Shown here one piece after another: positions 2,582 to 10,867 of a stretch of DNA of 36,716 nucleotides. Source of the stretch: Candidatus Thermoplasmatota archaeon (lineage in GTDB: Archaea; Thermoplasmatota; Thermoplasmata; UBA10834); the NCBI GenBank assembly GCA_018814355.1, contig JAHIZT010000129.1, forward strand, positions 1 through 36,716, in the 5' to 3' direction. Position numbers and translations under genes: made by a program. Below the pieces are notes generated by a model that searched no databases, was not told the DNA's origin, and was given only the letters and a program-made list of their open reading frames with translations. How positions within the stretch are numbered: position 1 is the stretch's first letter; every line of letters starts with the position of its first letter.

Positions 2582-3229
2582 ATGAGCAGCGACAAGATTC
2601 TGAAAGACCTACAGAAGTCAGTTTTGGGATATGATTCGGCGGCAGCAGTGAGCGCAGCAAGGGCGGTCATCGCGACTAAGATGGACCCCCTGTTGGCTAT
2701 CGAGAAGGGCCTCGTGCCAGCTATCGAAGAAGTGGGCGAGAAGTTCGAGAAGATGGAGCTATACCTTCCAGAACTGATGCTCGCGGGCGATGCCATGCGA
2801 TCCGCATTGGCATTGTTGCTGCCGCTGCTTCCAAAGGGATCGAGAGGCTACAAAGCGACTGCGGTGATTGGCACCGTCCAGGGAGACGTGCACGAGATCG
2901 GCAAGAATATCGTCGCCAGCCTCATGTTGGCAGGTGGATACAACGTCATAGACCTGGGCGTCGATGTGAAGACCATCGCATTCGTGGAAGAGGCCAGAAA
3001 GGCAGGAGCCAGGATTATTGGCGCATCAGCCCTGATGTCCAGTACCATCGGTTCACAGAAGGACATCGTGGACTACTTGGTCTCTTCTGGAGACAGGAAG
3101 AAGTTCGCAGTACTCGTGGGCGGCGGTCCCACTACAAAGGAATGGGCGAAGGAGATCGGGGCCGACGGTTGCGGCATGACCGCCGTAGAGGCCGTGAAGC
3201 TGGCCGACAAGTTCGTCAAGGGCAGGTGA
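2582..3229 (+). CDS. Corrinoid (B12-binding) protein of methylamine methyltransferase type (MtmC/MtbC/MttC family)
   Basis: This 215-residue methyl carrier would shuttle a methyl group on a cobamide between a substrate-specific methyltransferase and an acceptor enzyme. The N-terminal helical cap (about 1-90) carries the usual PELMLAGDAM-type segment. The Rossmann-like B12 domain has the lower-ligand motif D-V-H-E-I-G (GDVHEIGKNIV), then GASALMSST and GGGPTT. ATG 2582 is chosen over the upstream in-frame ATG 2537 because AGGTGGGG stands just before it and family members start at this point. It stops 4 nt before the MtmB homolog, so the two are clearly co-transcribed. Which corrinoid subfamily it belongs to cannot be settled by eye. 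Confidence 0.9.
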   Translation: MSSDKILKDLQKSVLGYDSAAAVSAARAVIATKMDPLLAIEKGLVPAIEEVGEKFEKMELYLPELMLAGDAMRSALALLLPLLPKGSRGYKATAVIGTVQGDVHEIGKNIVASLMLAGGYNVIDLGVDVKTIAFVEEARKAGARIIGASALMSSTIGSQKDIVDYLVSSGDRKKFAVLVGGGPTTKEWAKEIGADGCGMTAVEAVKLADKFVKGR

Positions 3230-3233
3230 GTCC

Positions 3234-4616
3234 GTGGTACAGATCCTAGACGTTATGGAGAAGGCCCTTAACGGCAAGCCAATGAGCGAAACCGATTACC
3301 AGCTAAGGGTTTTCGCGCCCAAGGTTCAGGAGAAGGTCAGAGAGCACAAGATCAAGTTCGACCCGAGCAACCCCATCCCGAACGACAACTCGCTGGCAGA
3401 CGATATCTTTGAGGCCGGGATGGAGCTCCTAGTCGATGTCGGCGCATACTGCACGACCAGCGGACGGGTCATCTCTTACACCGAGGCGGAAATAAAGAAC
3501 GCCCTTAGGACCGCCCCGTCGAAGGTGCACTTCGGCGAGGGAAGGGACAGAAAAGCCCTCGTCAACAGGAAGGTCGGGGACAAGACACCTCCTTGGTGCC
3601 TCCTGGGCGCTGGAGGGGGTGCATGCTCCAGTGACAGATCGTTCCTTACGCTGGTGGAAGGCTACGCGGAGATACCCGAGACAAATGGGATCACCACCCC
3701 GGCCATAACGCGTGTCGGGGGTATGAGGGTCAGGCCAGCCTCGCCCCTGGAGGTCATGGCAGCCCAGAGGAATGCGGTGCTCGCCAGAGAGGCGTGCAAT
3801 AGGGCGGGACGCCAGGGAATACCCATAATGAACTCCCTCGCGACTGCAGAATCCGATATCGCACTGGCTGCGGCCATGCACCCGAAGTTCGGGATGCGCC
3901 CATCCGATGGCTACATGATATGCTGCATGGACCCGATGAAGGTCGACTTCGCAAGGTTGAACAAGGTCGCAGTCGCACTGTCGTTGGGCGGTCCGATTGG
4001 AATGTGTTTCGGACCTCTTCTGGGAGGATACTCCGGCGGACCCGAAGGGACTGCGGTGTCGAATGTCGCGCACCACATGATGGGAATCCTGACCTACCAG
4101 TCGTCATGGCTGCTGCCGTTCACGATTCATCTGAAGTATGTTGCCAGCAGCCCCAGGGACATGCTCTGGGTCATCAGCACGATGGGTCAGGCGGTCTCAA
4201 GGAACACTCATCTCCTGAGCCTGAATCTGAACTACACGACAGCTGGACCATGCACTCCGATGTGCCTGTTTGAGACATCGGCGTCAGTGACTGCAGCGGT
4301 CACTGCTGGACTCTCTATAGAGTCGCTCGGCGTAGCGACGAACAAGCACGAGGACAGGACGACTCCAGTTGAGCCGAGGATTTCTGCCGAGGTGGGCCAC
4401 GCAGTGGCTGGCATGAAGCTCTCGGACGCGAACGAACTGGTGAAGAAGCTCCTGGGGAAGTACGAATCGAAGCTGAAAGCGCCTCCGCTGGGCAAGAGCT
4501 TGTACGAGTGCTGGGATCCTGAGACTCGCAGGCCGAGCAAGGAGTACAAAGGCGTGATCAAGGCCTACAAGAAGAGCATGTCCGCCCTCGGGCTTGAGCT
4601 CAGGCCAGAGGAATAG
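3234..4616 (+). CDS. MtmB-family (monomethylamine methyltransferase) homolog lacking pyrrolysine
   Basis: The 460-residue product is collinear with monomethylamine:corrinoid methyltransferase MtmB (about 458 residues). Shared landmarks include GAYCTTSGRVISYTE (near 70-84), VGDK (114-117), SPLEVMAAQ (170-178), AGRQG (191-195), GGYSGG, AGPCTPMCL and the C-terminal GKS-YECWDPET stretch. MtmB carries UAG-encoded pyrrolysine at about residue 202, after GRPGMGV. The equivalent here, GRQGIPI, is followed by Met199 (ATG at 3828-3830), and no in-frame TAG occurs. The barrel fold and corrinoid partner are kept, but the Pyl-dependent chemistry is not, so monomethylamine is doubtful as substrate. The GTG start at 3234 follows GGTGAG; ATG 3255 is a shorter alternative. 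The stop codon is TAG. The MtmB comparison is from memory. Confidence 0.85.
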   Translation: MVQILDVMEKALNGKPMSETDYQLRVFAPKVQEKVREHKIKFDPSNPIPNDNSLADDIFEAGMELLVDVGAYCTTSGRVISYTEAEIKNALRTAPSKVHFGEGRDRKALVNRKVGDKTPPWCLLGAGGGACSSDRSFLTLVEGYAEIPETNGITTPAITRVGGMRVRPASPLEVMAAQRNAVLAREACNRAGRQGIPIMNSLATAESDIALAAAMHPKFGMRPSDGYMICCMDPMKVDFARLNKVAVALSLGGPIGMCFGPLLGGYSGGPEGTAVSNVAHHMMGILTYQSSWLLPFTIHLKYVASSPRDMLWVISTMGQAVSRNTHLLSLNLNYTTAGPCTPMCLFETSASVTAAVTAGLSIESLGVATNKHEDRTTPVEPRISAEVGHAVAGMKLSDANELVKKLLGKYESKLKAPPLGKSLYECWDPETRRPSKEYKGVIKAYKKSMSALGLELRPEE

Positions 4617-4704
4617 ACGCGACCTGGACCGGGCCATCCCCACTTCCTCTCGTCTGTCGAAGCAAACGATATCAGAGAGGTCGTACATTGAGGTCAAGCA
4701 GGCT

Positions 4705-4968
4705 ATGACGCAGAAGATGCACAAGCTGTTCCTGACTACGTGCGACCTCGGAGAAGCAAGGTCTGTCAATGCCAGCGAGTGCGAGAGTTGCCCGCAAGGG
4801 AGCGTGGTTGATGGCAAGTCGCGGGTCATCTGTGGTGGCGTCACGAAGTTCTTCGTAGCCCCTTGCTACTATGAAATGCGGTCTGCAGCCACGATTTTCG
4901 ACTGCGCGAAGTGCAGGTTCGGCGAAGTGGGCCAGGACAGGATAAGGGTCTTCTGCTCCCGTATGTGA
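4705..4968 (+). CDS. Small protein of two tandem four-cysteine modules
   Basis: I do not recognise this 87-residue protein. It contains eight cysteines, at 13, 26, 29, 43 and at 54, 67, 70, 84. The two sets share exactly the same spacing (C-x12-C-x2-C-x13-C), with a period of 41 residues and no gap. This points to an internal duplication of a four-Cys metal-binding unit, zinc or iron-sulfur. Around the cysteines, ECESCPQG/DCAKCRFG and SRVIC/IRVFC also match. There is no membrane segment. It lies 88 nt after the MtmB homolog on the same strand and may belong to that operon. The frame is open from 4594, but the upstream part looks non-coding; ATG 4705 or 4717 is the likely start. Confidence 0.7.
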   Translation: MTQKMHKLFLTTCDLGEARSVNASECESCPQGSVVDGKSRVICGGVTKFFVAPCYYEMRSAATIFDCAKCRFGEVGQDRIRVFCSRM

Positions 4969-5080: not shown

Positions 5081-5659
5081 GTGACTTCAGCTGGTAGCTC
5101 AGCTTATGTCATTGGTTCTGAGCCTAAGCCAGGCAACGTCTACCTCGTCGAGGAGAGGCGACCCAAGGTAAGCTTCGAGCTTTTCGACCAACAGCTGTCC
5201 GCAGGATACAACGGGCTGATCGTCACACGAGATTTCCCGAAGAAGCTCCTGTCCGAGTATGGAATCGGCGATTGCAGAATGCTCTGGCTTACCAACCTTG
5301 TTGGCGACGGAAGGATCAACCCGACGGCGATTGGCATCCTGATGAGCCAGGTCAGGAATTTCGTCGAAGGCGCAAAGAATACAGTTGTGGTGTTAGACGG
5401 CCTTGATTATCTTATCACGTTGAATACATACGACCGCATGCTCCAGTTCATGCACCAGTTGAGGGACACAGTTGTGACGAACGACTGCATCCTCATTGTC
5501 CCAATGGACCCGAGAACCGTCGGCCAGAGGGAGCTAGCGCTGCTCGAGAGGTGCATGGAACCGATTGTACCTCGCTCAGAGGGAGACGTTCAGGAGGAGT
5601 CGGTCATCGGCTCGGGCGAAGCGGGTGTTCTGAGGCTCTTGGACGCGCACCCGAGATAG
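5081..5659 (+). CDS. DUF835 family protein
   Basis: A 192-residue soluble protein that is almost entirely one DUF835 domain. Landmarks are YLVEE near 21, GLIVTR, LWLTN, NPTAIGIL, the Walker-B-like VVVLDGLDYL, and PMDPRTV followed by LALLER. DUF835 proteins are widespread in Euryarchaeota, often attached to sensor domains, and have no established biochemical role; the fold resembles a RecA/P-loop-like core without an evident Walker A. A second DUF835 domain closes the membrane protein at 9485-10759. The only suitable start is GTG 5081, since nearby ATGs are out of frame. The gene ends in TAG. Confidence 0.8.
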   Translation: MTSAGSSAYVIGSEPKPGNVYLVEERRPKVSFELFDQQLSAGYNGLIVTRDFPKKLLSEYGIGDCRMLWLTNLVGDGRINPTAIGILMSQVRNFVEGAKNTVVVLDGLDYLITLNTYDRMLQFMHQLRDTVVTNDCILIVPMDPRTVGQRELALLERCMEPIVPRSEGDVQEESVIGSGEAGVLRLLDAHPR

Positions 5660-6746: not shown

Positions 6747-8210
6747 CTACTTCAGTTCCTTCTCGCTCTTCCTGACGATGTCCTGGAGCTCCTTTGCAAC
6801 GTCGTCTTCCGGAGGCACCGATCTTGCACCCTTCAAGAGCTCCCTCGCCTTCGCGTTGGCCCTTCTGACCGGGTCGATTGAGCCGTGCTTCACCCAGTCC
6901 TCGTAGGTTCCGTATTCGAATACCATGGGGGACCATGCGTCCCTGAGGTGTTTGAGCGTGTGCCTCTTTGCCAGGAATGTTCCTCCGATGCCCACTTCTC
7001 TGATGAGGTCGCCAGCGATGGTTTCATCGTTCACATCTATCCCCTTGGCAATGTGCAGTAACTCCGTGACGATATCGTAGTCAAGCATGAGCTGCTCGAA
7101 CGATAGCACCGTCGATGCCTCAAGCAAGCCGAAACCGTTGACCATGTCCGCACCAGCGTTGACTGCGAGAAGAGTCCCCAGACAGTGCTCCGTGGCTGCC
7201 TGGCTACCAGGAACAAGCGCGTTGGTTCCGAAGGTCCCTGCCTGGGCGGGGAGTTTGTAGTGCTTAGCCAGGTCCACGATCGCGGCGCATAACAGCGCGG
7301 CCTCTGGAGAGCCCGACACATATGCTCCTGTCCTCGGTTCCATCATGGACAGGGTAGAACCGTAGATCGCTTTCGCGCCCTTCCTAGCGCACTGTGTGAG
7401 CGTCAGGATCGCCATGATCTCTGCGTTGCTGACCACAAGTGTCCCAGCCATGGTGACGGGCCCTGAGACGCCGGCCTCAACCATGCTCATCATCATGACC
7501 GGAACCCCTGCCTTCGCGAACTCTATCGTCGCCTCGCTGCCTCCTCCGTCCAGGTTCAACGGAGGAACAGCGCAAATGATTCCTGCGAGATTCGGCTTCT
7601 GCAGCAGCTTATCCCTACCGCCGGCCACTGCGGCTGCCATGTCAATCTGGAGCCTCGCCTCCGCTCCCGTCGTCGTGGACTCAGACATCACGAACTTGTC
7701 GGTGTTGGAGTAGGCTGCGTGGATCTGGTGCAACACATGTGCATGCAATGGCACGTCTTGGGGCGCTACTGAAGGTGTGAAGTACCCGACCCCGGGCAGG
7801 ACGTTCGCCAGGCGCGCGCAGTCGACTATGTCCTGCTTCCTGGCCGGTCTTCTCTTGCCGGAATCGATATCGATTGTCTGCACCCCGCACCCATCAAAAG
7901 TGAAGTAGACATGTGAGTTGTCCAGCTCGACGTCGAAATCGGGGTTACGCGCGCCAAGCTTGTACTCCTTCGGGGTGCTCCTGATGGACTTCTCGACCAG
8001 GTCTTTGGGTATCCTCGCGATCTGCTTCTCATTGTTCACATCTGCACCATGCTGGCGCAAGAGGTCGAGGGCGATGCCACTATAAATCCTGACCCCCACT
8101 CTCTCTAGTACGTCGAGGGATTCGTCATGGATGCGCTGGAAGGCGTCCCTATCGATCAGCTGCGTGGAGTTCTTTCTCATGCTCAGTTTCCTGAAGTCTC
8201 CCGAGGTCAT
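6747..8210 (-). CDS. MttB-family corrinoid methyltransferase lacking pyrrolysine
   Basis: The 487-residue product belongs to the trimethylamine methyltransferase (MttB) superfamily, TIM-barrel enzymes that move a methyl group from a quaternary or tertiary amine to a corrinoid protein. Landmarks include RIHDESLDVLERVGV near the N-terminus, PLNLDGGGSE, GPVTMAGTL, GAYVSGSPEAALL and LEASTVLSFEQL. Around the Pyl site of true MttB (about 334) this protein reads AGTFGTNALVPG, so the position aligns with Gly328 and no UAG is present. Pyl-less members such as MtgB demethylate glycine betaine, so a quaternary amine is a plausible substrate (inference). ATG 8210 follows GGTGGG; the GTG at 8219 overlaps that site. 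An ATTTAAAG box lies at 8245-8252. The stop is TAG. Confidence 0.88.
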   Translation of the reverse strand: MTSGDFRKLSMRKNSTQLIDRDAFQRIHDESLDVLERVGVRIYSGIALDLLRQHGADVNNEKQIARIPKDLVEKSIRSTPKEYKLGARNPDFDVELDNSHVYFTFDGCGVQTIDIDSGKRRPARKQDIVDCARLANVLPGVGYFTPSVAPQDVPLHAHVLHQIHAAYSNTDKFVMSESTTTGAEARLQIDMAAAVAGGRDKLLQKPNLAGIICAVPPLNLDGGGSEATIEFAKAGVPVMMMSMVEAGVSGPVTMAGTLVVSNAEIMAILTLTQCARKGAKAIYGSTLSMMEPRTGAYVSGSPEAALLCAAIVDLAKHYKLPAQAGTFGTNALVPGSQAATEHCLGTLLAVNAGADMVNGFGLLEASTVLSFEQLMLDYDIVTELLHIAKGIDVNDETIAGDLIREVGIGGTFLAKRHTLKHLRDAWSPMVFEYGTYEDWVKHGSIDPVRRANAKARELLKGARSVPPEDDVAKELQDIVRKSEKELK

Positions 8211-8324
8211 GTGTCCCACCTTCGTCCTGTGGGTATCCGCTCAGATTTAAAGAAGTTATTGAGAATATGACATCAAGGTGAATCTGGATTGGACGAGCGA
8301 CGGACCGATGTCGAACAGAAGTAC

Positions 8325-9484: not shown

Positions 9485-10759
9485 TCAGCCCTGGATGAGT
9501 ACTGCTCTCTTCTCTATGAGCGCGGCTTCTCTTTCGGTCAGCGTGCGCTTGTCGACAGTTACAATCAGCCGGGAATTATGGGCGACAATCAGGTCCTTCA
9601 AGTGGTCAAGCGTTGTAAGGGCCTTCTTGAAATCGGCATACGTCACTATCGACTCGAAACCGTCCACCAGTATGATTGAGTTCTTGCCCTTTTCCAGGAA
9701 TCTGACGATAGTACCGGTCAGGATACCTGTGTTCGCCGGGTGAATCGCTTCGCTACCAGGGGAGGTCGAAAGCCAGATCATGGCAGTCTTCTTGAGGCCG
9801 TAGGTAGGCTTGATCATGCTGGGAGGCTTCCGCGTGATGATCAGTCCCTCAAGACCTTGGCTGAGGCCTTGCACGATCAATTCATAGCCCCTTCTGGAGT
9901 CCGTGCTCCAGATGACATAGGTGTTCCTTGGAGCGAGCTCTCTCATGGCCTCTTTTGAGCCATAGGTCTCTGGGGCTGGCTCCACTGAAGGGAACCTCGC
10001 ACTGGAGAGGAGGAGCATGCCGAATCCAAGGCTGAGCATGGCGTACGACCCTATGTAGAAGACATCTGGCATCGATCCCACTGAGTATGCACCCGAGGCC
10101 TCGTAAATTGTGTAAAGCGAATCGCCCACTGTATAGAAGGCAATTGAGACTCCGACGATGATCCAGCAGTCTTCGAGGAGGCCCTTCCGGAACGACCATA
10201 TGAGCATGATGACGAGGCTAAGTATGACTGCGTCTAGGGGAGTGTACAGGTTCCAGGTGACTTTCTCCAGGGTGGACATGTCCGTCGAACCATATGATTC
10301 GCGGACCACGTATATCAGGAGCGGAGAAACTGCCAGCCAGAACGCAGCCTGGACCGCAATGATCTGGCGAGAGATCTTGACCTTTGCGTCACGGATGACC
10401 TTGAACAGCAAGGCTATCAAGGCGACATAGCCGCTTAGCCAGAAGAGGTCAGCGAGAGAAACAGTGACCTCTTCGTCGATCACCTCCGCGTAGATGCTCC
10501 AGGTCAGCTCTCCCAATGCCAATAGGGTGAACGCGACCACCAACCCGAGGTTGATCTCGGGCGACGGGCTCTTCCTAGTGAACCAGTAGAGCGCGAAAGC
10601 GAGGATTGCAGCAGCCAGGGCGAAAACCGGATTGGTTGCATTGCCCATGAGTACTCCATCGTCCTCGTTCAGCAACGAGAACACTATGTAGACGACAATC
10701 ACGATGAATGGAGTCGCTGTCAGAAACAATCCGAGATTCGTCCTTGGTATGATGGCCAT
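9485..10759 (-). CDS. Multi-pass membrane protein with C-terminal DUF835 domain
   Basis: The 424-residue product has about eight hydrophobic segments in its first 270 residues, then a cytoplasmic DUF835 domain (about 295-420). That domain shows TYVIWS, GLIITRKPP, MIWLST, HPANTGIL and IILVDGFESI. The architecture of a membrane sensor plus DUF835 suggests signal input, but the signal is unknown. Its DUF835 part aligns end to end with the free-standing protein at 5081-5659. ATG 10759 is preferred over the TTG at 10813, because a TTGATATACTC box at about 10804-10812 would start transcription near 10781. It converges on the serine hydrolase gene, with 14 nt between the stops. Confidence 0.8.
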   Translation of the reverse strand: MAIIPRTNLGLFLTATPFIVIVVYIVFSLLNEDDGVLMGNATNPVFALAAAILAFALYWFTRKSPSPEINLGLVVAFTLLALGELTWSIYAEVIDEEVTVSLADLFWLSGYVALIALLFKVIRDAKVKISRQIIAVQAAFWLAVSPLLIYVVRESYGSTDMSTLEKVTWNLYTPLDAVILSLVIMLIWSFRKGLLEDCWIIVGVSIAFYTVGDSLYTIYEASGAYSVGSMPDVFYIGSYAMLSLGFGMLLLSSARFPSVEPAPETYGSKEAMRELAPRNTYVIWSTDSRRGYELIVQGLSQGLEGLIITRKPPSMIKPTYGLKKTAMIWLSTSPGSEAIHPANTGILTGTIVRFLEKGKNSIILVDGFESIVTYADFKKALTTLDHLKDLIVAHNSRLIVTVDKRTLTEREAALIEKRAVLIQG

Positions 10760-10867
10760 ATCAACCGCAGACTTTCTTTCGCATGGTCTATTTTGGTTCA
10801 GAGAGTATATCAATGCCGTGGTCGACCTACCAAATCTGATAATCGCATAGTCCTGACGACATCTGGC

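Follow-up and report, generated by a model that had tools for sequence, protein, structure and literature searches.

The gene at positions 3234-4616 of the window (the whole 36,716-nucleotide stretch of archaeal DNA that was analysed) encodes a member of the monomethylamine methyltransferase (MtmB) family that has methionine where MtmB has pyrrolysine (Pyl). Together with the corrinoid protein encoded directly upstream, it probably removes methyl groups from a quaternary-ammonium-like compound in a corrinoid-dependent manner, and would pass them to tetrahydrofolate and not to coenzyme M. The two genes are:

2582-3229, + strand: MtxC-type corrinoid partner, 215 aa when read from the ATG at 2582 (PF02607 and PF02310)
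3234-4616, + strand: methyltransferase of the MtmB family without Pyl, 460 aa, initiated at GTG (PF05369, matches to MtmB crystal structures, structural model)

The methyltransferase ORF comprises 460 codons from the GTG at 3234 to the stop that ends at 4616 and contains no in-frame TAG. In Pfam its product matched positions 1-450 of the 450 in PF05369 (E = 3.7e-94) and no other family; PF06253, which describes the non-Pyl MttB proteins of the MtgB type, was not matched, and a search of NCBIfam returned no family. The only PDB matches were to M. barkeri MtmB (458 aa, E about 1e-66), with 31% identity to 1l2q and 1nth. An AlphaFold2 model based on a 51-sequence alignment (pLDDT 94.6) was compared with known structures using Foldseek; a structure-based alignment to MtmB had been suggested in the initial annotation. 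It has an MtmB-type barrel (1l2q, TM 0.95, 1.4 A), and the next-best matches were MttB-family structures (TM 0.52-0.55). Membership of the MtmB family is thus established by both sequence and fold, in line with the whole-length alignment (460 against about 458 residues) reported at the outset, and the PF05369 and Foldseek matches rule out a different barrel family. It is not, however, one of the Pyl-dependent monomethylamine methyltransferases; that assignment is refuted. Comparison with four close orthologues gave dN/dS values of 0.06-0.10; the gene is under strong purifying selection. Its 3' end is overlapped by a small cysteine-rich ORF (4594-4968), which has no match in Pfam or NCBIfam and has a homologue in one other neighbourhood of our set.

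Alignment with MtmB identified the codons at the Pyl site and at three further positions of the pocket:

3828-3830, + strand: ATG codon of Met199, Pyl202 column of MtmB (alignment, conservation in homologues)
3915-3917, + strand: codon of Met228, MtmB Glu229 column (alignment)
4005-4007, + strand: codon of Cys258, MtmB Glu259 column (alignment); the type II paralogue has Asp here, type I has Cys
4227-4229, + strand: codon of Leu332, MtmB Gln333 column (alignment)

Met199 and Pyl202 are aligned behind a gap-free run (AGRQGIPI-M and AGRPGMGV-Pyl, respectively), and relative to the Pyl MtmBs there is a one-residue insertion at residue 202. Alignment and codon therefore agree with the initial annotation, which had placed Met199, encoded by ATG at 3828-3830, at the Pyl site. 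It had also proposed inspecting residue 199 in a predicted structure; in our model residues 199, 228, 258 and 332 are all found on predicted barrel strands. A missed pyrrolysine, whether from a TAG miscalled as ATG or from misassembly, was named there as an outcome that would overturn the reading, and its probability is now negligible. Met occupies the Pyl column in all 35 distinct homologues from the order, and the same holds for the proteins of its clade that come from Bathyarchaeota and Thorarchaeota. Internal TAG codons are absent from the PF05369 genes of the order (21 genomes sampled); the mtmBs of two genomes of the same class (G036 and G046) contain TAG. PylS was not detected above the cut-off in any of the 21 order genomes, in a search that was positive for the methanogen-like G036 and one control genome. 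Matches of the kind found below the cut-off also occur in 13 of 14 control genomes, which suggests that they are other class II synthetases. Finally, the remainder of the pocket has changed as well: among the 35 proteins Glu229 is replaced by Met or Leu, Glu259 by Cys or Asp and Gln333 by Leu or Ile. In the MtmB crystal structures these three residues are partners of Pyl in its cleft; as their columns have changed too, the pocket has been rebuilt. A miscalled TAG or misassembly at codon 199 is refuted.

Phylogenetic analysis (IQ-TREE, unrooted) was carried out with 61 of the 146 proteins collected. The Pyl MtmBs form a single clade (100/100), and one change between Pyl and non-Pyl suffices to explain the tree. 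The window protein lies apart from them, in a non-Pyl clade of 20 rows (100/99) from its own order, Bathyarchaeota and Thorarchaeota; this tree of Pyl and non-Pyl members, too, had been suggested in the initial annotation. A P-x-M-N motif runs through all 20 rows, with Ser for Pro in one row from Bathyarchaeota. The other non-Pyl subgroups, unlike this clade, have His (Heimdallarchaeota, Spirochaetota and Desulfobacterota groups), Lys, Gln or Ile (other archaeal groups) or Val at the Pyl column. A Methanosarcinaceae group does have Met, in a different motif (LMGP). Since two changes are needed to account for both, Met was either acquired or retained twice independently, and the LMGP group (L182-L185, L189-L191, L135, L137, L157) is a separate Met-bearing lineage. 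Some of its members are divergent from Pyl mtmB genes and are found without a corrinoid gene. With a single change between the two states in the 61-protein tree, the family is well suited to asking if a quaternary-amine enzyme gained Pyl or lost it.

Pyl-less relatives of MtmB were described as uncharacterised in the initial annotation, which is now outdated. MtqB from Methanococcoides methylutens Q3c, a non-Pyl MtmB homologue, transfers methyl groups to cob(I)alamin, with tetramethylammonium (37 nmol/min/mg), choline (42 nmol/min/mg) and, weakly, monomethylamine (11 nmol/min/mg) as donors; the same study also presented a phylogeny of 1,061 MtmBs with and without Pyl (Kashyap et al. 2026, PMC13044021). 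Non-Pyl MtmB homologues, including those of Sifarchaeia (PMC9723677), are thus a recognised group already; the window protein belongs to it in the broad sense and represents a separate, widespread branch, whose Thorarchaeota and Bathyarchaeota members share the PxMN motif. Judged by family group, gene order and pocket, the Methanosarcinaceae proteins L172-L174, encoded directly downstream of an MtbC-like gene, are candidates for MtqB. They have Cys at columns 230 and 258 in common with the window protein, but identity is 31% and most pocket residues differ. A tree uniting them with the window clade was rejected (p-AU 6e-39, for a grouping named after the tree had been seen). With that caveat, and with L172-L174 taken as putative MtqBs, the tree and AU test rule out a simple MtqB orthologue. 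What the window gene shares with mtqB is a corrinoid gene directly upstream of a non-Pyl MtmB homologue; MtqB and MtqC differ in belonging to another clade and to a methanogen host that uses coenzyme M.

These comparisons bear on the substrate. The sole characterised non-Pyl MtmB cited here, MtqB, uses quaternary amines (PMC13044021); this and the two Cys residues shared with L172-L174 favour a quaternary-ammonium substrate, whereas the different clade and the differences in the pocket count against it. MtmB itself (1l2q, 1nth) resembles the window protein in its full-length family match, its fold and its upstream corrinoid gene, but possesses Pyl, E229, E259 and Q333 and works with MtbA; the window protein has Met, Met, Cys and Leu, and its genome lacks PylS and MtbA. 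A Pyl-independent mono- or dimethylamine methyltransferase, in which the MtmB substrate class is retained and Met/Cys chemistry stands in for the Pyl adduct, would be in keeping with the common fold and family and with the weak monomethylamine activity of MtqB (PMC13044021). We consider it decidedly improbable, given that the residues lining the anionic cleft in which the Pyl of MtmB lies (PMC2933860) are now Met, Cys and Leu, and that there is no MtbA. Without Pyl, the acidic cleft residues and PylS, monomethylamine should not be assumed to be the substrate. This matters because an mtmB annotation is often the basis on which uncultured archaea are taken to use methylamine. The order of the window genome is probably Ca. 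Gimiplasmatales, in whose MAGs mtmB has been annotated (PMC11264602), and for this order the mtmB label is probably wrong.

PF05369 genes, at least one per genome, are found in 20 of the 21 sampled order genomes, the exception being 55% complete. Two paralogues occur per genome, and in the window's own genome (G000) they are the window gene, of type I (Cys258), and a type II copy (Asp258) whose product shares 72% identity with that of the window gene. A corrinoid gene lies directly upstream in 15 of 18 type I loci (15 of 17 where there is enough upstream sequence). The loci come largely from metagenome-assembled genomes, and where contigs end affects such counts of neighbours. The loci lacking one are L017 (130 nt upstream), L049 (526 nt) and L041 (a third copy in its genome). 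Elsewhere in the clade, the same arrangement is found in every protein from Thorarchaeota and in several from Bathyarchaeota. Type II loci have no corrinoid gene; the exception is a single genome of the second family (L005, L051). In 8 of 17 type II loci (L032, L033, L035, L038, L040, L043, L050, L011) the gene directly follows a dimethylargininase-like gene, the best NCBIfam matches of which are dimethylargininases, below their cut-offs; the apparent Glu-His-Cys residues are kept. This neighbour is a possible clue to the type II substrate; a literature search for a link between corrinoid proteins and dimethylarginine in archaea gave no match. The dimethylargininase reaction would release di- or monomethylamine, which speaks for a Pyl-independent methylamine methyltransferase, but the link belongs to the paralogue and not to the window gene, and even in type II just Asp258 is restored. 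It is quite unlikely that the Met-type archaeal clade forms a distinct functional class acting on a substrate new to MtmB relatives; types I and II could then, for example, carry out different steps in the breakdown of methylated amino acids, and type II might demethylate methylamines in a Pyl-independent way.

The corrinoid gene of the window ends at 3229, leaving a gap of 4 nt to the methyltransferase start at 3234, as had been noted before. Its ORF is also open from a GTG at 2537, and a G-rich stretch precedes the ATG at 2582. The protein combines the B12-binding cap and B12-binding domains that define MtxC, and the DxHxxG cobalt-ligand motif can be read in its sequence (GDVHEIGK). Its best NCBIfam matches, to MtgC, pyl_corrinoid and MtbC, all fall below the cut-off. 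We uphold as probable the earlier proposal that the two proteins form a functional methyl-transfer pair. The type II genes and the LMGP group of Methanosarcinaceae, which are without a neighbouring corrinoid gene, might raise the suspicion that the protein is an MtmB remnant with no catalytic activity or with a regulatory function, or that it works in the methylating direction. For the window gene the likelihood is slim indeed, since it is coupled to a corrinoid gene, evolves under strong purifying selection and retains all elements of the fold.

One further methyltransferase gene is encoded in the window:

6747-8219, - strand: MttB-family (COG5598-type) homologue, no internal stop (PF06253, E = 5.5e-100)

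Its product scores 446 bits against TIGR02369 (cut-off 525) and may also use the corrinoid protein encoded at 2582-3229. In the operon of a sister genus the order is EamA transporter, MttB, MttB, mtxC, mtmB-like, from which we conclude that three methyltransferases may share one corrinoid protein. No transporter or enzyme that would name the substrate was found in the window. DUF835-type proteins flank the region (5081-5659, PF05763, and 9485-10813, related by BLASTP clustering). The sulfur-rich, non-polar pocket and the wide phylogenetic distribution of the clade would suit a methyltransferase for a non-amine donor, such as a sulfonium, thioether or methoxy compound. The known substrates of the MtmB family, however, are nitrogen compounds, and the operon-mates in the sister genus are of the MttB family, whose characterised members use amines; a non-amine donor is unlikely.

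We favour the quaternary-ammonium reading, by analogy with MtqB and with MtgB and the other non-Pyl MttB demethylases; the window protein most likely works like MtqB or MtgB. The MtgB-type enzymes follow the same logic, in that a Pyl-less relative demethylates a quaternary amine through a corrinoid protein and, in acetogens, the methyl group then passes to folate via a pterin-binding partner. They are a different protein family with just the limited fold likeness given above. In our model, the TIM-barrel protein would bind the methylated substrate in a pocket in which Met199, Met228, Cys230, Cys258 and Leu332 replace Pyl and its acidic partners, and would present the methyl group to the Co(I) of the neighbouring corrinoid protein. 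With no pyrrolysine to activate the substrate, the methyl group most likely comes pre-activated, from a quaternary ammonium compound of the betaine or choline type, as with MtqB and MtgB. The methyl group would be moved on to tetrahydrofolate by a pterin-binding methyltransferase whose gene is located in another part of the genome, and a RACo/RamA-type protein would keep the corrinoid reduced.

The gene content of the order is consistent with this route. Genes for the URO-D family (MtbA/MtaA), MtrH and MCR were found in none of 14 order genomes, with positive controls, and coenzyme M or MtrH as acceptor was therefore rejected. All 14 encode RACo and pterin-binding proteins (PF00809). In the window's own genome one PF00809 gene (contig C37) has two MttB genes and an MtgC-like corrinoid gene as neighbours; its product matches a methyltetrahydrofolate:corrinoid methyltransferase model just below the cut-off. 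Another (contig C73) adjoins a RACo/AcsV-like gene in what looks like an acetyl-CoA synthase cluster; its counterpart in G011 exceeds the cut-off for methyltetrahydrofolate:corrinoid methyltransferase and lies near the gene for the acetyl-CoA decarbonylase/synthase gamma subunit. A route from substrate via corrinoid protein to tetrahydrofolate thus appears likely. The second methyltransferase was reported missing in Ca. Gimiplasmatales (PMC11264602); assuming that the order is the same, the two PF00809 genes are candidates for it.

The same genome (2.06 Mb) has about 25 MttB-family (PF06253) genes, about five of them in a run on contig C95, fitting a specialist in methylated amines that invests heavily in Pyl-less demethylases. 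One MttB gene (L218, contig C77, 20810-22231) has a single in-frame TAG, at residue 256. The Pyl site of MttB corresponds to Pyl334 of the M. barkeri protein (PMC9842639). A Pyl codon was rejected, because the TAG falls well before this site at a position that is Glu in homologues, and a nonsense change or sequencing error is more likely.
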